Positions 2,664-16,670 of a stretch of DNA of 64,000 nt are shown in pieces. Each line of letters opens with the position of its first letter. Positions within the stretch are counted from its first letter, which is position 1. Origin of the DNA: an uncultured Opitutia bacterium. GTDB taxonomy: Bacteria; Verrucomicrobiota; Verrucomicrobiia; Opitutales; Coraliomargaritaceae. The notes below the pieces were generated by a model, which was not told where the DNA came from, did not search any database, and was given only the letters and a program-made list of their open reading frames with translations. The position numbers and the translations under genes were made by a program. The stretch is from the NCBI GenBank assembly GCA_937136395.1, contig CAKZOI010000070.1:62001-126000 (forward strand), read 5' to 3'.

Positions 2664-4964
2664 TTAGGCGTTCGATTTTTTACTAAGCACTTCATTCAGT
2701 GCATCGCTCATCTCTTTTATGCGGTAGGGCTTTGGCACGACCGCGGTAAACGGTGAGTCGCTAAAGTCGGACATGACATTCGTATTGCTATATCCGCTTG
2801 ACGCAATTGCGAGCAGTCCTGGGTCGTATTCGATGAGTATTTCAGCAGCTTCCTCTCCGCCCATACCTCCTGGAACAGTTAAGTCGAATACCACAGCGTC
2901 GAACGCTTTGCCCGTTTCCTTGGCGGTTTTATACGCATGGATCGCTTCTTCTCCATTGGTGGCAAATTCGACTTCGTAGCCAAGCATACTGATAATCTCC
3001 CCGGCCACCATCATCATGGCTTCCATGTCGTCCATGATCAGAATGCGTCCGTGCCCAGCTTTTATGGCTTTTTCATCGTTGGAGCTTTCTTTAACGATGT
3101 TCTCGAAAGGAGCTTTCGAAGTGTTGTTTCCTTTGGGGAGATAGATGGAGAAGCGTGAGCCCTTGTCGACTTCTGAATCTACGGTCATCATTCCGTTATG
3201 GCTTTTGATGATCGAGTATGATGAGGCTAGGCCGAGGCCGTTGCCATTTTCTTTGGTAGTGAAGTAGGGGTCGAATATTCGTGTGAGATTTTCTGGTGCG
3301 ATACCGACACCTTGATCGGAAATTTGAATTTCCAGATACTTGCCAGATTTCAGTGTAGGGACTTCGTCTTTTTCGAGTTTGCAGTTGGATAATTTTATTC
3401 TAATCAACCCGCCGTTTGGCATAGACTGGTCAGCGTTGATCAAGAGATTGTTCACGACTTGGGCGATTTGCCCTTGGTCTGCGTCGACAGCCCAAGTGTC
3501 CGGTGTGTGTTCAATTTCACAGCGGACGTTCGAGCCTCGTAATATAAAATCGGCGCAGTCTTCGAGTATTTGGTTGATTGTAGCGGATTCTAATACGGGC
3601 GCACCTCCTTTTGAAAAGGTGAGCAATTGTTGCGTGAGAGAAGTTGCTTGTAGTGCGGCTTTTTCGGCGGCGAGAAGTCTGTTCGCGTGCTCATTCTCAT
3701 CCGATATATTCGCACGAACGACAGAGATGTTTCCCAGGATCGCACTTAGGATGTTGTTGAAGTCGTGCGCAATGCCTCCTGCTAAAAGACTGATGGATTG
3801 TAATTTTTCTGATTTTAAGAACTCCTCCGCAGCAAGCTTATGTTGTGTGATATCACGTAATACGACTACACAGCCATAGTGTCCGTCCTCGTCATCTAGT
3901 ATGCAGCGCATATCAGCGTTAACGAAAATATGATCTTTGCTGTCTCGAGTTGGACTGATGCCAAATTCGAGTAATGTTTGTTGTTTTGTTTGGTTGAGCA
4001 AACGCTCGCCTGGATCAGAAATGAGCTTTCCAGTTTTTGGGTCTTGTAGATGCAATATTTCACTCAAGGGCTTGCCGATAGCTTCATCGTTTTGGATGCC
4101 TATTATTCGAGAGGCTTCTTGATTGATCCGATCGACGGCACCTTTGTCGTCGATTGTGATGACGGCGTCAGAAATTGAATCTAAGGTTACCGAGAGTCGC
4201 TCTTTCTCTCGTTTAAGATTGCGTTCTGCATGGCGGCTGCGTAGTGTGATATCGCGCAGGGTGGCCAGTCGCGCGCTCTCGCCTTCCCAGATGAGGTCGG
4301 CAGCAGATAGCTCGACAAGGCGTGTGCTGTTGTTGGGTCCAGGGATTTCGAGCTCAGTCGTTTGTTTACTGTCTAGTTCAAAGGGGAATGTTTCGCCAAT
4401 AAGAGATTGGATGTCCGCATCAAGAAGCCTTCCTGCGGCAGGGTTCAAGAATTTGATTTCATACTGCGGAGTGAGTATCAGCATTGCGTCGGTATTTGCA
4501 TCAAAAATACGGCGTAGTAACATTTCCCTGTGCCTCATTTCGACTGCTTGTGCTTCGACTTTTTTGAGCATATTCGCACGCTCTATCGAGTAGCGAATGG
4601 AGCGCCGAAGCACTTCACCATTAAGCGTGTCTTTAAATAGATAATCTTGAGCGCCTGCTTGGAGTGCTTTCAATGAAAGTTGCTCGTCTTGCTCGCCAGT
4701 GAGCACGATGAGCACTTCATCGTCGGTAAATTCGCGGAGGGCTTCGAGCGTTTCGATGCCTTGCGTGTCGGCCAAGGATAGGTCGAGCAGTATGAGATCG
4801 TAGTGTTGGTTTTTGAGCAGCTTTAATCCTTCGGTCAAGCGCTTCACGATTGTAAGTCGATGGGGTAGCTCCGAGATGTCTAGATATTCTGCCAGTAGGT
4901 TTGCATCGGCTTCATTATCTTCGAAAACGAGAATGCTTAAGTCGGTATTTGGGTCGTTCGACAT
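2664..4964 (-). CDS. Hybrid sensor histidine kinase/response regulator (REC-PAS-PAS-HK-REC)
   Basis: Cytoplasmic 766-residue two-component protein with no membrane segment. Order of domains: receiver (residues ~8-125, phospho-acceptor in [10 protein letters not shown]), PAS (~145-250), second PAS (~262-375), HisKA with the phospho-accepting His in [15 protein letters not shown] (~400), HATPase with [11 protein letters not shown] and [11 protein letters not shown], and a C-terminal receiver (~635-760, Asp in [14 protein letters not shown], Lys in VVPKPYR). The N-terminal receiver suggests that it takes phosphate from, or is tuned by, another kinase. The frameshifted kinase directly upstream, on the same strand, is the obvious candidate. 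The sensed signal is unknown. Confidence 0.93.
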
Positions 4965-6626: not shown

Positions 6627-7817
6627 ATGCCGGTTGCCTCCACACAGTGTGTATCACAGCATTTTCACCTGCCTTTCAGTGAGGTAGAACTTGAAGCTTG
6701 GGCGAGGGATCAGGCAAAGTCCCATTCCATTTCGCCAACTTTTGGTTTACTTTTTTGTGCGGCGGACACGTTGCCGAATGCTAAAGAAATTCTGGAGATC
6801 ATTCGTATTTATGCACAGGTGCCAGTGATGCTCGGTTGCTCTGGTGCAGGCTTGATTGTCAATGCTCATGAATTCGAGGGCGAGGGGGGCTATAGTGTCT
6901 CCTTGTATTATTTGCCGGATACAGCGGCTGAAGTCGTGCATTTGCCTAGCGATTTATTTGAAGCCGACGATTTAGCAGACGCGCTTAGGGAGACCATCGC
7001 AGGCCAAGCCGAGTCAGCAAATGCGTGGATGCTGTTTGCGTCTTCAGATAGTTTTGGCGACGAGTCATGGCTTGCTGACTGGGATCAAGCAACAGGAGGC
7101 AGGACGACTATCGGCGGCTTTGCGTGTGGTGCATCAAGTTCAGGTGTTGCGGCATTGTATGCCGCTGGTGATGTTTTTTACGATGGCGCCGTCGCGATGT
7201 CACTCTCGGGTGCGGTGACGATTGAGTCTGTCTTGGCGCAGGGCTGTCGCCCGGTCGGATCTCCATGGACAGTCACTCAGGCAGATCACAATGTGATCCA
7301 TCAGATAGGCAATCGCCCGATTTTGGAAGTGTTGCGAGATACTTTGGAAGGTATGTCGCATAAGGAGCAAAAGCTCGCACGTGGAAATATCTTCATCGGG
7401 CTCGTCCTTGACGAATATAAGCAAAATTTCGAGATGGGGGATTTCTTGGTGAGAAATCTAGCGGGGATTGATCCACAGACTGGATCGGTCGCAATTGCCA
7501 CTCCTTTACGGATCGGGCAAAATCTACAATTTCAAATACGCGATGCGCAGACCGCATCGACGGATTTGGAGAGCTTGTTGAAAGTGCGCATGCTACAGCT
7601 GAGAGGGCGCTCCGTGTATGGCGCGTGTCTGTGCGATTGTATCGGCAGAGGTGCATCCCTGTTTGGGGTCCCAGACCATGATGTGAGTGTGATTCGAGAT
7701 ATTGTGCCAGGGCTCAATGTCGGAGGCGTCTTTTGCAACGGAGAGTTTGCGACGGTTGATGGGCGCACTTTGTTGCATGGATATGCGGCCAGCTTGGCAT
7801 TATTTGTTGAAGCATAG
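6627..7817 (+). CDS. FIST-domain signal transduction protein
   Basis: A 396-residue cytosolic protein matching the FIST_N plus FIST_C architecture, a sensory module proposed to bind small ligands such as amino acids. FIST_N features include LLFCAADTLPNAKEIL and VPVMLGCSGAGLIVNAHEFE. The middle has GGFACGASSSG and DGAVAMSLSG, and the C-terminal half holds the FIST_C repeat ending GVFCNGEFATVDGRTLLHGY. There is no membrane anchor or output domain, so it probably acts through a partner. It is divergent from the two kinase genes, with only about 55 bp between the starts, which suggests a shared promoter region and a functional link to them. The ligand is unknown. Confidence 0.88.
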   Translation: MPVASTQCVSQHFHLPFSEVELEAWARDQAKSHSISPTFGLLFCAADTLPNAKEILEIIRIYAQVPVMLGCSGAGLIVNAHEFEGEGGYSVSLYYLPDTAAEVVHLPSDLFEADDLADALRETIAGQAESANAWMLFASSDSFGDESWLADWDQATGGRTTIGGFACGASSSGVAALYAAGDVFYDGAVAMSLSGAVTIESVLAQGCRPVGSPWTVTQADHNVIHQIGNRPILEVLRDTLEGMSHKEQKLARGNIFIGLVLDEYKQNFEMGDFLVRNLAGIDPQTGSVAIATPLRIGQNLQFQIRDAQTASTDLESLLKVRMLQLRGRSVYGACLCDCIGRGASLFGVPDHDVSVIRDIVPGLNVGGVFCNGEFATVDGRTLLHGYAASLALFVEA

Positions 7818-8168: not shown

Positions 8169-11100
8169 ATGTCGAAAATAGATTCTAAAGTGTCTTCGTT
8201 AACCGATGATAAAGAACGCCTTGCGCTTCTAAAAGCGCTCTGGCGAAGTCGTCTGGGCGACCTTCGCGAGCAGAGCTTGATCCGTCAAGGCAAGGGTTGG
8301 TTTCACATCTCAGGAATGGGGCATGAGGCGTTGGCGGCGATCGCATCAGAGCTGGAGCCCGATGACTACGCATTTCCCTACTATCGCGATCGCGCATTTT
8401 GTGTGCAGAGGGGCTTAAGTGACTATGATTTAGCCTTAGCCTTTTATGCCAAACGTGATTCTTCCAGTGGTGGACGTCAGCTGACTGGGCATTTTAGCGA
8501 TCGTGCATTAAATATTTGGAGTCATCCGTCGCCAGTTGGCGTGCATTTGCTGCCAGCCTGTGGTGCGGCTTGGGGCATGCAGCTCGATGGTAAGCAAAAT
8601 GTGGTGTATGCTTCTTTAGGCGAGGCGTCTGCGCGGCAGGGAGATTTTTTCGAAGCCGTTTGTTTTGCCAAGGAGCGAAAGCTCCCCGTCGTCTTCGTGG
8701 TCGAAGATAATCGTATTGCGATCAGCACGTCGACCACGACGACCAATCCGATTGCTTTAGGTGTGCTCGATAAAAGCGAATGGAATCGCGTGGACGGCAG
8801 CGATGTCGAGGCTGTGGCGCAAGCAGGCAGAGAGGCGGTGGCAAAGGCTCGATCAGGACAAGGGCCCGCCTTTATTTGGTGCGATGTAGAGCGCTTTTCG
8901 AATCACTCAAGCGCAGATGATCAACGCATGTATCGCGCGGCGGATGAATTGGAGACCATGCATGAGCGTGATCCAATCGCTGTGTTTCAACGTAAATTAA
9001 TTGCGGATGGTCTGCTGACCGAGGCTTCGGCAGCGGCACTAGAGGAGTCGATTCGTGAACAAGTTCGCGAGGCGTATCGCCAAGCAAGCGGGCAAGAAGA
9101 CCCGCGGGCAGACGAGTCAGTGCTACACTTGACTGGAGGCCTTGAGGATGCGCCACCCGTTCCAGCACTCGAGTTCGGTGATTCGTGTCGTATTCTAGAT
9201 GCGGTAAACAAGACCTTTCATGCCGCTTTAGACAGTATGTCTGATGTCGTCTTTTTCGGCGAAGACATCGCCGACCCGAAAGGTGGCGTGTTTAATTTAA
9301 CCAAAGGGCTTTCGACTAAAGACCCCGCGCGTGCAGTGAATTCGCCACTGGCGGAATCTACCATCATGGGGGTATCGGTTGGTCTGGCTTCTTACGGCAA
9401 GCGCCCTTGCTTTGAAATTCAGTTTGTCGACTTCATTTATCCAGGCTGGAATCAGTTAGTGTCGAATATGGCGACTTTGCGTTGGCGTAGCTTCGGCCAT
9501 TGGAAATGCCCATTGGTGATTTATGCACCTTGCGGTGGGTATTTGCCTGGCGGCGCACTCTGGCATAGCCAAGCAGGCGAGGCGTCGTTTGCACGTGTGC
9601 CGGGTATCCGAGTGGTGATTCCCTCCACTCCAAGCGATGCTGCAGGACTCTTCTGGACGGCGCTTCATGGGGAAGACCCGACAATTATTTTGCTGCCAAA
9701 GCACTTGATGTGGGCAGAACTGCCCGTTCCTGAATCCGTCGCTCCTGTCCCTCTTGGTAAAGCTCGCATAGTGCGCGAAGGCGGATTGCTGACGCTGGTG
9801 ACTTGGGGCAATTGTGTTGAATTGGTCGAGGACACGCTAGAGGCCTTAGATGTTGCCCTGGATGTTGAGCTGATTGACTTGCGCTCTGTCGCGCCATGGG
9901 ATCGTGAGGCAATCGCCGATTCGGTTCGCAAAACGGGGCGTCTGATGATCGTTCAAGAGGACAATATCTCAGCAAGTGTCGGACAAATGATCGTCGCAGA
10001 GATGTGCCAGCAGCGCTGTGTTTTGCAGCGCTTGAAGGCGCCGCCAGTCATCGTTTCCAAAGAAGATGTGCATGTCGGCTTTAACCCCATTTATGAATAC
10101 GCGGCATTGCCCGATGCCGCGCGTATCCGTGCAGCACTTGATTATTTATTATCCAATACGCTTGAAGCGTCGCTTAAACTCGACGCGGCAGCGGAGACCA
10201 GTAGCTCTGCTGCATTACAACCCGCGACTGAAGATGTTATGATAGCCCCAGATAGCGCCCCGCTTGAATCGTCAATAAAAACGATCACCGTGCCCATTCT
10301 AGGTGAAGGCATACGTGTCGCGAGAGTGGTTTCTATACTGAAAAAACCTGGCGATACAGTGAAGGCCGACGATCCACTTTGTGAAGTGGAAACTGACAAA
10401 GCCGTGTTCCCGATCGAATCCGACGAAGACGGTATACTCGAAGAGTGGAAGATCGTAGAAGATGACGAAGTCAGCGTGGGACAAGATCTCGTCGTGCTGC
10501 GATTGACTGGCGCCGCGGCGAAAGCCCCTGCACCTACGGTTGAGCCCGTTGCGTATGATACGCTCAAGCGCACCGGCGGTCTATCATCTGAGGCAGTGAA
10601 ACAACTCCAAGGCATCGTCCCTGCGACGATTGATATGACTTGCCGCTGGCAAGCGGTCCGCGATGCGCGCTTGCGTAGTAAGAAGACGCCAGGCGGCACA
10701 CTTTCCACGGCAACCATGACCGCCTGGGCAATTGCCCAAGCCATGAAGAAGCATGAGCGCTTTTCCTCGGTTGTGCGTGGTGAAAATCTTGATTTCGATC
10801 CTTCTCGTATCGACCTCGGGGTTGCAGTCGCTTTACAAGGAGACCAGTTGGAAACGGCAGTGGTTAAAAATGTGCACACCCTAGAATGGGAGCCTTTCCA
10901 AGAGGCCTTTAATGAGTCATTGCGTCGCACGCGTCATGGCGAAATTGCCACCAAGAACCGAGTTTCACTTTCGATTTCCAGTATGGCGGCGTATAATGTC
11001 CGTTCGGCCATACCAATTGTGGTGCCGCCATCCATCGCGACCCTCTTTATCGGTGCACCTCATTTGATGCCCGATCCAAAGTCGAAAGACGGTGGCACAA

Positions 11101-11213
11101 TGGAAGTGATCTCGCTGGTTCTTACATTTGATCACCGCTGGATCAATGGCGTAGGCGCCGCAGCATTCCTCTCAGATGTCCGTAAAGGCATCGAACGCTT
11201 CGACCTCGCATAA
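8169..11213 (+). CDS. Four-domain 2-oxoacid dehydrogenase fusion (E1alpha-E1beta-lipoyl-E2)
   Basis: A 1014-residue cytosolic protein combining parts of a branched-chain/2-oxoacid dehydrogenase complex. Residues ~20-310 are E1alpha, with thiamine-diphosphate-site sequence [16 protein letters not shown] and [10 protein letters not shown]. Residues ~335-660 are E1beta ([35 protein letters not shown]). Residues ~703-779 are a lipoyl domain with the lipoylated lysine in VETDKA. Residues ~800-1014 are the E2 acyltransferase fold ending [17 protein letters not shown]. The usual DHRxxDG motif reads DHRWING (Asp to Asn). No peripheral-subunit-binding domain is evident between the lipoyl and E2 domains. 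No E3 gene is nearby. The substrate is inferred only at family level. The gene stands alone. Confidence 0.9.
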
Positions 11214-14051: not shown

Positions 14052-14432
14052 TCATTTTGGTAGCCATTTCAGGTAGTCCAGATAGTCCTTCCGCCCTTTG
14101 GGAGTGTCGGCCAAACCGCCGATAGCCTCCAGTGCAGCGGTGCAGTCCATAAACGCCGGTCGCTTGGGCTTGTTGTGCAAATACCAATAGCTCGACCATC
14201 GGTAATCCTTGAGCGGTTCAACTGACGTCATCGACGCTCGAACCGGATTCAAATGCACGTAGTGCAGCAAAGCTCCCAGATAATTGTCCTCTTCAACGAT
14301 CAGACTTTTATAGCGACCTTGAAACAACTTCCCGTCGACCTTACGAAAACGATGATAGCGATTTGCAAAAGTGGACTGCAACCAGCGCATCCCAGAGATT
14401 AAATTACCCTTCAGGACACTAGTGGATCCTTG
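14052..14432 (-). pseudogene. REP-associated tyrosine transposase (RAYT), 5'-truncated
   Basis: The surviving reading frame encodes the C-terminal ~60% of a Y1/IS200-like RAYT: LKGNLISGMRWLQSTFANRY, LFQGRYKSLIVEEDNYLGAL, YVHLNPVRASMTS and YRWSSYWYL. The N-terminal part with the HUH metal-binding motif is missing; reading upstream meets a TGA at 14433-14435. It is therefore not expected to be active. It sits at the far end of the integron cassette region and marks a mobile-element scar between lysS and the cassettes. Confidence 0.85.
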
Positions 14433-15533: not shown

Positions 15534-16670
15534 TCAAGGGTGGAGTTTGATCTGCCCTTCGTGATCTTTCCATGCCTCCACTTGTGGCAGCAAGTTTGGC
15601 AATCGCGGTTGCAACGGATAAAGGCGATGGAAAACACCCGTGGACGAGCCGGAGATGGGCGGCACGATCCATGACCACTCGGCTTGTACTTCGTGGCCCT
15701 GGGATTGCTCGCGCTCACAGTGGGCGAGGAATTCGCGCGAAGCTTGGTGGTGGTCCACCATGCGCACACCTTCACGGGCGAAGGAATGCAATACGGCTTC
15801 GTTGAGCACGAGCAGGGCACGGTCCTTCCACAGGCCGCTGTCACGCTGCAATCCGAGCCGCTCTGCCACTTCCGGCAGGAGGTTGTAGCGGTTGGCATCG
15901 CCGAGGTTGCGGGCACCGATCTCGGTTCCCATGTACCAACCGTTGAAGGGGGCGCAGGGAAAGACATCGTCTAGGGAGACCAGCAACATGTCTGAGATCG
16001 CCGGCACGGCGTGCCAACGCAAGCCGAGTTGTGAAAACCAAGGATACTCAGGGTGCTCAAGTTCGACCTCCAGTACTACCTCGCGCGGCAATTCGCGGAC
16101 GACAACCCGTCCGTCCACCTCAATGACCAAAGGCAGCAAATCGAAGCGTCCGGGGTCGGCCGATGGCGACCAGCCGAGCGAGCGGACCCGCTCGGTGAAG
16201 GCCACGTTCATGGGGTCGCCTAACACCGAGCCGTCTGGGTGGCGGTATCCGGCGTAGCGGATCAGCTGGTGATTCCAGATCCGAATGCTCGGATGCCCTT
16301 CCCGCCACCGGGCGAAAACCGTCTGCGTTGGAATGATGCGACCACCGTTGGTGGCTACGCGCAGGTGCTCGACACAGGCCTCGAAAACCTCGTCGGCATC
16401 ATCCAGCGAGCGGGCGTCGACGACCTGCAGAGAGCGCCAATGCAGACGTCCGATGCAACGCACTGATTCGCGCCACGCCAGGCGAGCGGCATCGCCCAGC
16501 GTCATCCCGCCGGAGCCGTTCGACATGGCTTGAACTAGCTTCCAAGCCTCGTCAGCCCGCCAGCGACGCGAATGGTCAAAAACACCCGTGGCATAAGGGC
16601 AGGCACCGCCAGACGTCGCTACGTCGGCCGGGTCTTTAGAAAATTGAGGGGGTCGAGAATTCGTTTCCAT
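15534..16670 (-). CDS. nos: Bacterial nitric oxide synthase, oxygenase domain
   Basis: Haem-thiolate enzyme that oxidises L-arginine to citrulline and nitric oxide using electrons from a separate reductase. The 378-residue protein is a complete NOS oxygenase domain: haem-ligand Cys72 in RCIGRLHWRSLQVVDAR, VATNGGRIIPT, IWNHQLIRYAGY, GLRWHAVPAIS, the arginine-binding Glu250 in FNGWYMGTEIGARNLGD, LWKDRALLVLNEAVLHSF, VDHHQASREF and WIVPPISG. Like other bacterial NOS it has no fused reductase. The length is a little above the Bacillus enzyme. The gene reads GC-richer than its neighbours and lies between two attC-like sites, so it is probably a horizontally acquired integron cassette. No nearby pterin or reductase gene is visible. 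Confidence 0.95.
   Translation of the reverse strand: METNSRPPQFSKDPADVATSGGACPYATGVFDHSRRWRADEAWKLVQAMSNGSGGMTLGDAARLAWRESVRCIGRLHWRSLQVVDARSLDDADEVFEACVEHLRVATNGGRIIPTQTVFARWREGHPSIRIWNHQLIRYAGYRHPDGSVLGDPMNVAFTERVRSLGWSPSADPGRFDLLPLVIEVDGRVVVRELPREVVLEVELEHPEYPWFSQLGLRWHAVPAISDMLLVSLDDVFPCAPFNGWYMGTEIGARNLGDANRYNLLPEVAERLGLQRDSGLWKDRALLVLNEAVLHSFAREGVRMVDHHQASREFLAHCEREQSQGHEVQAEWSWIVPPISGSSTGVFHRLYPLQPRLPNLLPQVEAWKDHEGQIKLHP

Follow-up and report, generated by a model that had tools for sequence, protein, structure and literature searches.

Can a single polypeptide that joins E1alpha, E1beta, a lipoyl domain and E2 of a 2-oxoacid dehydrogenase complex be a working enzyme, how would such chains assemble, and to what would they hand the acyl group? 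These questions are raised by a gene in the window, the whole 64,000-nt stretch of DNA that was analysed. The features of this gene, together with two genes close to it, are the following.

8169..11213, plus strand: whole gene for the single chain E1alpha-E1beta-lipoyl-E2, 1014 aa plus stop (ORF, Pfam, AF2)
8259..9104, plus strand: E1alpha, PF00676 (E1_dh), residues 31-312 (Pfam 6.3e-56)
8619..8711, plus strand: G151-E152-A153 ... N181, which by its role we take to be the ThDP-Mg motif; GDG-type, Glu for Asp (E1 alignment)
9198..10127, plus strand: E1beta, PF02779 (Transket_pyr), residues 344-513, and PF02780 (Transketolase_C), residues 530-653 (Pfam 1.1e-27 and 8.9e-20)
10161..10268, plus strand: linker 1, residues 665-700, predicted disordered (AF2 pLDDT < 50)
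10281..10499, plus strand: lipoyl domain, PF00364 (Biotin_lipoyl), residues 705-777 (Pfam 4.9e-18)
10398..10400, plus strand: lipoyl-accepting Lys744 in ETDKA (invariant in a 30-row alignment)
10512..10583, plus strand: linker 2, residues 782-805, predicted disordered, the usual place of the peripheral-subunit-binding domain (AF2, Pfam)
10584..11210, plus strand: E2 acyltransferase catalytic domain, residues 806-1014 (Pfam, AF2, structure matches)
11130..11150, plus strand: DHRWING, residues 988-994, with H989 and N993 (sequence, alignments)
2664..4964, minus strand: hybrid histidine kinase
6627..7817, plus strand: FIST-domain protein

The gene, its domains and its distribution

The frame starts with an ATG and is open throughout its 1014 codons (0 internal stops), and five Pfam domains follow one another in the order E1alpha-E1beta-lipoyl-E2, the 2-oxoacid_dh match covering residues 820-1012 (6.7e-25). 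This bears out the first-pass annotation, which had read the locus as one 1014-residue protein with an altered E2 motif, DHRWING, and without a peripheral-subunit-binding domain. As to the latter, E3_binding (PF02817) has no Pfam match at E<=1 in the chain, while the same library finds it at 1e-17 in the PDH E2 of the same genome. Moreover, the motif PPRTR, present in 12/12 unfused E2s (two-gene and Streptomyces forms, see below), occurs in none of 50 fused linkers that could be scanned (L013 is masked); a very divergent subunit-binding domain would escape both tests. The AF2 model of the whole chain has a mean pLDDT of 81.7 and a pTM of 0.65, with values below 50 in the two stretches that flank the lipoyl domain (residues 665-700 and 782-805), and the model suggests that the lipoyl arm is tethered on both sides.

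That three genes were run together by assembly or annotation might be suspected from an in-frame TAG between E1alpha and E1beta in one of 21 matches and from a frame break at locus L023. However, the fused form is found in 28 of the 387 genomes surveyed across the phylum (own included), spread over several families, and an internal stop, which together with a frame break between domains the first-pass annotation had named as the thing to look for, occurs in none of the 28, so that the probability of such an artefact is negligible. In a set of 38 genomes, full-length homologues were found in 21 (own included), 20 of them without internal stop; the exception, that of G016 (L036 = L051), has one in-frame TAG at the E1alpha/E1beta border, near position 6973 of L036, and is otherwise fused. 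Among the 32 loci, L020 and L039 are partial, L023 is split by the frame break, L036 carries the TAG and L037 has no E2. The 28 fused-type matches of the phylum survey are those of at least 842 bits among a total of 63 at E<=1e-100, and the other 35 (357-450 bits) form a second group, in which KASIII comes after the lipoyl domain. Named records carrying the fused chain come from Coraliomargarita (L011), other Opitutia and a Blastopirellula MAG, and from these names the phylum surveyed is taken to be Verrucomicrobiota. The gene is dispensable, because a full-length match is absent from 7 of 25 genomes of the same family (G006, G013, G015, G017, G020, G022, G023). One small genome that carries it (G035; 1.3 Mb, 91% complete) has neither a SucA match nor a lipoamide dehydrogenase over the cut-off. 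PDH-like genes are also present in 24 phage records, which may hold host DNA; the 10 listed are unannotated.

The E1 part and the host genome

Residues N181, R242, H246, E396 and H466, whose catalytic roles we presume from BCKDH and PDH work, are identical in 51/51 aligned E1s (17 fused, 9 split, 9 KASIII-linked, 3 Streptomyces, 1 E1ab-plus-free-lipoyl-protein and 12 others), and D250 is found in 49 of them. At residue 152, where the GDG motif has its Asp, 39 of these E1s carry D and 12 carry E, the window's chain and two ordinary plasmid-borne E1s being among the latter. The putative catalytic residues of E1 and the lipoyl Lys are kept. For both E1 halves the best PDB sequence match is the Thermus branched-chain E1 (alpha half, 1um9_A, 146.7 bits), and a Foldseek search with the whole-chain model returned human BCKDH beta (1dtw_B) as the best match, plus Thermus E1 beta (1um9_B). 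In the E1 tree two PDHs are separated, with a UFboot of 100, from a group comprising the fused E1s, a Rhizobium 3-methyl-2-oxobutanoate dehydrogenase and another three plasmid-borne E1s; this tree was made with one fixed model and few references, named by annotation only, the Rhizobium protein being the sole named branched-chain one. An annotated pdhA (Haloarcula) lands on its branched-chain side.

The host genome (3.18 Mb, 99.96% complete) encodes a PDH on contig 10 (TIGR03182, 424.5 bits, over the cut-off of 393.85), whose E2 is best matched by a mitochondrial-type model (418.6 bits, under the cut-off of 445). SucA and SucB lie on contig 21 together with an E3, and another E3 is encoded on contig 47; the two E3s are the lipoamide dehydrogenases over the cut-off, both away from the fused gene. 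No further alpha/beta-type E1 is present among the seven matches in this genome. Since PDH and SucA/SucB/E3 are encoded separately in this genome, and since the fused E1 clusters with E1s of branched-chain type, we infer a self-contained enzyme: the fused gene rather probably encodes a working single-chain E1-E2, most likely for the branched-chain 2-oxoacids to which Val, Ile and Leu give rise. That it is another pyruvate dehydrogenase, or acts on some other small 2-oxoacid (2-oxobutyrate, acetoin), might be proposed from the NCBIfam models that the chain matches, which are PDH models, the more so as annotation alone seldom tells these substrates apart. These matches are far under the cut-off (TIGR03181, 198.6 of 411.35 bits), a PDH E1alpha over the cut-off is already in the genome and the fused E1 stands apart from both PDHs in the tree, all of which makes this alternative unlikely.

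Iso-C14:0 and anteiso-C15:0 fatty acids start from isobutyryl and 2-methylbutyryl groups, and the product of a branched-chain E1-E2 would be isobutyryl-, 2-methylbutyryl- or isovaleryl-CoA as fatty-acid starters. Values given for three Coraliomargarita species are 9.9-23.1% iso-C14:0 and 2.4-11.1% anteiso-C15:0 (PMC10288369), and a further report describes species of this genus as rich in iso-C14:0 and as having anteiso-C15:0 (PMC11165907), in both cases for strains other than the one of L011.

The neighbours of the fused gene, i.e., those for a FIST protein, histidine kinases, DUF456 and lysS, offered no operon clue to the substrate. Of 33 neighbourhoods, many of which end at contig ends, 9 include a FIST gene and 17 a hybrid kinase, and the two are not found around L026, L030, L033, L035 and L038. 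Elsewhere in the window, the oxygenase domain of a bacterial nitric oxide synthase (PF02898, 1.1e-124) is encoded at 15537-16670 on the minus strand, and a fragment similar to a REP-associated tyrosine transposase, with 27.1 bits against a cut-off of 80, lies at 14055-14390, also on the minus strand. Neither Rfam, at its gathering threshold, nor a tRNA search gave any match in the 64,000 nt.

The E2 motif and the assembly of the chains

The replacement of Asp by Asn in the E2 motif had raised the question of whether this part is an acyltransferase or only a scaffold, and a structural role could also be read from the divergence of the E2, whose Pfam match begins only at position 31 of the model and which has diverged more than E1. 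However, Asn stands at the Asp place in 51/51 distinct near-full-length fused chains, the window's included, a set from which frames of <990 aa or <40% identity and exact duplicates were left out. With three partial or broken chains (L020, L023, L036) the count becomes 54/54 readable ones, L037 (no E2) and L039 (ends before E2) being outside it, and 12/12 unfused relatives have Asn as well. Moreover, H989 is, like K744, invariant in the 30-row alignment. The Asn-type E2s form one clade in a 37-sequence tree (UFboot 97; one fixed model, weak inner nodes), which is why, within the E2 clade, the change from Asp to Asn would most simply have happened once and then persisted in Verrucomicrobiota, in Planctomycetes-like genomes and in Streptomyces.

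The AF2 model of the E2 (residues 782-1014; pLDDT 92.6) matches 3mae in Foldseek (3.9e-19) and the M. tuberculosis BCKDH E2 3l60 with a Z of 25.6 (2.4 A over 215 residues), the Z values being 24.1 to OdhA and 17.5 to chloramphenicol acetyltransferase. In OdhA the catalytic centre is described as a His316/Gln320 dyad (PMC10415282), and KGD shows DHRIIQG at the motif when aligned with the window's E2. The PDB titles of 1dpb, 1dpc and 1dpd name Ser558, His610 and Asn614 of Azotobacter E2p, and the Asp379Ala variant of E. coli E2o is reported to retain 9.5% of complex activity (PMC5986005). Because Asn is conserved throughout the family, and because of Gln320 of OdhA, Asn614 of Azotobacter E2p and the activity left in E2o Asp379Ala, the Asn provides no argument for a dead E2, and its reading as a scaffold mark is not supported. 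The same type of E2 also stands at the start of a Streptomyces assembly line, and altogether a merely structural E2 is very improbable.

The first-pass annotation had further argued that a trimerising E2 would force six E1 half-sites into one assembly, built differently from the classic cores. In these cores, according to the OdhA report, the terminal helix of E2 makes the trimer-trimer contacts (PMC10415282). The tail after NG is 18-21 residues long in 43 of the 51 fused E2s and 23-35 in the other eight, and the Pro-x-x-hydrophobic end, present in the seven ordinary lipoyl-bearing E2s compared, is found in none of the 51; this lack of the usual tail suggests, at the level of sequence, a core other than cubic or dodecahedral. 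A short tail is not specific to fused chains, since the usual end is also missing in nine unfused planctomycete-like E2s and, by eye, in a bare Asp-type Phaeobacter E2. The departure from a classic core is thus supported by the tails, but the build itself has a precedent: OdhA/KGD is described as combining a dimeric E1 and a trimeric E2 in one chain, giving a hexamer of three E1 dimers and two E2 trimers (PMC10415282). The tails of the fused chains and the linkers predicted in the window's chain fit trimers joined by E1 dimers.

In the mechanism that we propose for the branched-chain E1-E2, the fused E1alpha-E1beta would pair with that of a second chain to form the usual double E1 active site, in which the 2-oxoacid would be decarboxylated on ThDP and the acyl group passed to lipoyl-Lys744 of the chain's own flexibly tethered domain. 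The E2, as a CAT-fold trimer with H989/N993, would then transfer the acyl group to CoA, and the lipoyl arm would be reoxidised in trans by a lipoamide dehydrogenase encoded elsewhere. With E1 attached, a subunit-binding domain would no longer be needed to hold it and may have been lost for this reason. The smallest closed assembly would be six chains (three E1 dimers, two E2 trimers), an open tethered network being the other possible form.

With the branched-chain complex (Thermus 1um9, Pseudomonas 1qs0/2bp7, human 1dtw) the fused chain shares the alpha/beta E1 fold, the catalytic residues, the lipoyl domain and a CAT-fold E2, and it differs in being one polypeptide, in which no subunit-binding domain was found, and in having Asn for Asp and a shorter E2 tail. 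The best PDB sequence match of its E2 domain is OdhA/KGD (8p5r, 2xt6), which as described in PMC10415282 likewise has E1 and E2 in one chain and the Asp replaced (Gln320 in OdhA). In OdhA, however, the E2 comes first, the E1 is a SucA-type one-piece protein and the lipoyl group is provided in trans (PMC10415282), whereas the fused chain begins with E1alpha-E1beta and has a lipoyl domain of its own.

Relatives of the fused chain and delivery of the acyl group

Two kinds of relatives, a two-gene form (L147-L155) and the start of a Streptomyces PKS-NRPS (L134-L136), belong to the same E1ab and Asn-type E2 clades as the fused chain but have E1ab as a separate gene and keep a divergent subunit-binding-like stretch, the Streptomyces form adding ACP-KS. 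The two-gene form was found in nine of the 60 genomes around the Blastopirellula genome G413, and in 9/9 fetched cases the lipoyl-E2(Asn) gene comes after the E1ab gene within ~80 bases or overlaps it; another of these genomes, G446, holds a fragment and is outside the count. No Pfam subunit-binding domain is reported in 5/5 unfused E2 genes scanned. That these E2s are without such a domain was considered and dropped, as a profile comparison pointed to a divergent one (hhalign of the stretch against ordinary PSBDs: E 2e-4, with a probability of only 46). Loss of the domain appears to go with fusion to E1, because the stretch is kept in unfused relatives while its motif is missing from the fused linkers. 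On a Phaeobacter plasmid (L169:2366-5387) four separate genes encode E1alpha, E1beta, a lipoyl protein of 77 aa and a bare Asp-type E2 of 228 aa.

Streptomyces plasmids hold the nearest named relatives of the fused E1ab (41-46% identity). In 3/3 regions read (L134-L136) of five listed, with H41 and H45 outside this count, the E1ab gene adjoins a PKS-NRPS gene that begins with lipoyl-E2(HxxxN), and in L134 (14899-31872) Pfam finds ACP-KS after the lipoyl-E2. L135 and L136 also carry pabB, prephenate dehydrogenase, chorismate mutase and methyltransferase genes, which, as we presume, recall the pristinamycin supercluster. The two KS and one C-A module of L134 fit the scheme described for SnaE1, in which isobutyryl-CoA is taken first, followed by two malonyl units and by glycine (PMC6963833). 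That dehydrogenase genes occur near clusters of this kind was known before, since a bkdAB cluster is cited as a plausible origin of the starter for virginiamycin M (PMC9636800); what would be novel in Streptomyces is in-place loading, in which the E2 domain would transfer the acyl group from lipoate to ACP.

In the sister clade of E1s, E1ab-lipoyl stands in the same order and the chain ends in a C-terminal KASIII, not E2. These chains (L100-L121, L125) mostly have 1100-1200 aa and were fetched from 22 of the 35 phylum genomes, plus one from G413; Pfam places KASIII after the lipoyl domain in 5/5 chains scanned, and the KASIII Cys, His and Asn are kept in 22/22 complete ones, the 23rd fetched ending at its contig. 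Free KASIII genes occur in 10/10 genomes searched. Mutual exclusion of KASIII- and E2-ending chains was also considered, there being one match per genome in 63/63 cases, a count in which only the two best candidates per genome were scored, and was discarded, as G413 has both. In a Verrucomicrobiales MAG (G415, L156:5474-7709) E1ab is followed by a free lipoyl protein of 84-89 aa and the next gene resembles apolipoprotein N-acyltransferase; the assembly has no E2 (PF00198) match.

These arrangements bear on the acyl acceptor. The lipoyl arm and Asn-type E2 could load an acyl carrier protein instead of CoA and so prime fatty-acid or polyketide synthesis directly, as might be suspected from the Streptomyces E1ab gene next to a PKS-NRPS that starts with lipoyl-E2(HxxxN) and goes on with ACP-KS in L134, from the place of this E2 in the window's own Asn-type clade (UFboot 97) and from the sister group with its intact KASIII residues. 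On the other hand, the window's chain has neither an ACP nor a KASIII domain, the genome contains two free KASIII genes (one over, one under the cut-off) that could accept acyl-CoA, the E2 structures matched by the model are those of CoA acyltransferases and isobutyryl-CoA is named as the streptogramin A starter (PMC6963833, PMC9636800). For the window's enzyme we thus regard a bypass of CoA as possible but doubtful, and CoA would be the acceptor in the single-chain branched-chain E1-E2. For the family as a whole, the ends of the module in E2, E2-ACP-KS or KASIII suggest that acyl-lipoyl groups are delivered straight to carriers or condensing enzymes. We tentatively propose, with somewhat less than even confidence, that E1ab-lipoyl is a transferable unit that would hand its acyl group from lipoate directly to whichever domain stands behind it, be it E2 (to CoA or ACP), ACP-KS or KASIII.

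A single-chain E1-E2 (OdhA), fused E1ab in annotated public records and Asn or Gln in E2 are already known. For the E1alpha-E1beta-lipoyl-E2 order and its KASIII variant, no description was found among the titles and abstract openings of the open-licence papers listed, which in one case were 20 of 210. In all, this would be a compact one-chain enzyme with active-site coupling built in, in which the roles of the subunit-binding domain and of a giant core can be separated. If direct delivery is true, 2-oxoacids would be turned into fatty-acid or polyketide starters without free acyl-CoA. The family lends itself to testing directly if lipoate primes these syntheses in place of acyl-CoA, and also how an assembly line of streptogramin type obtains its starter.
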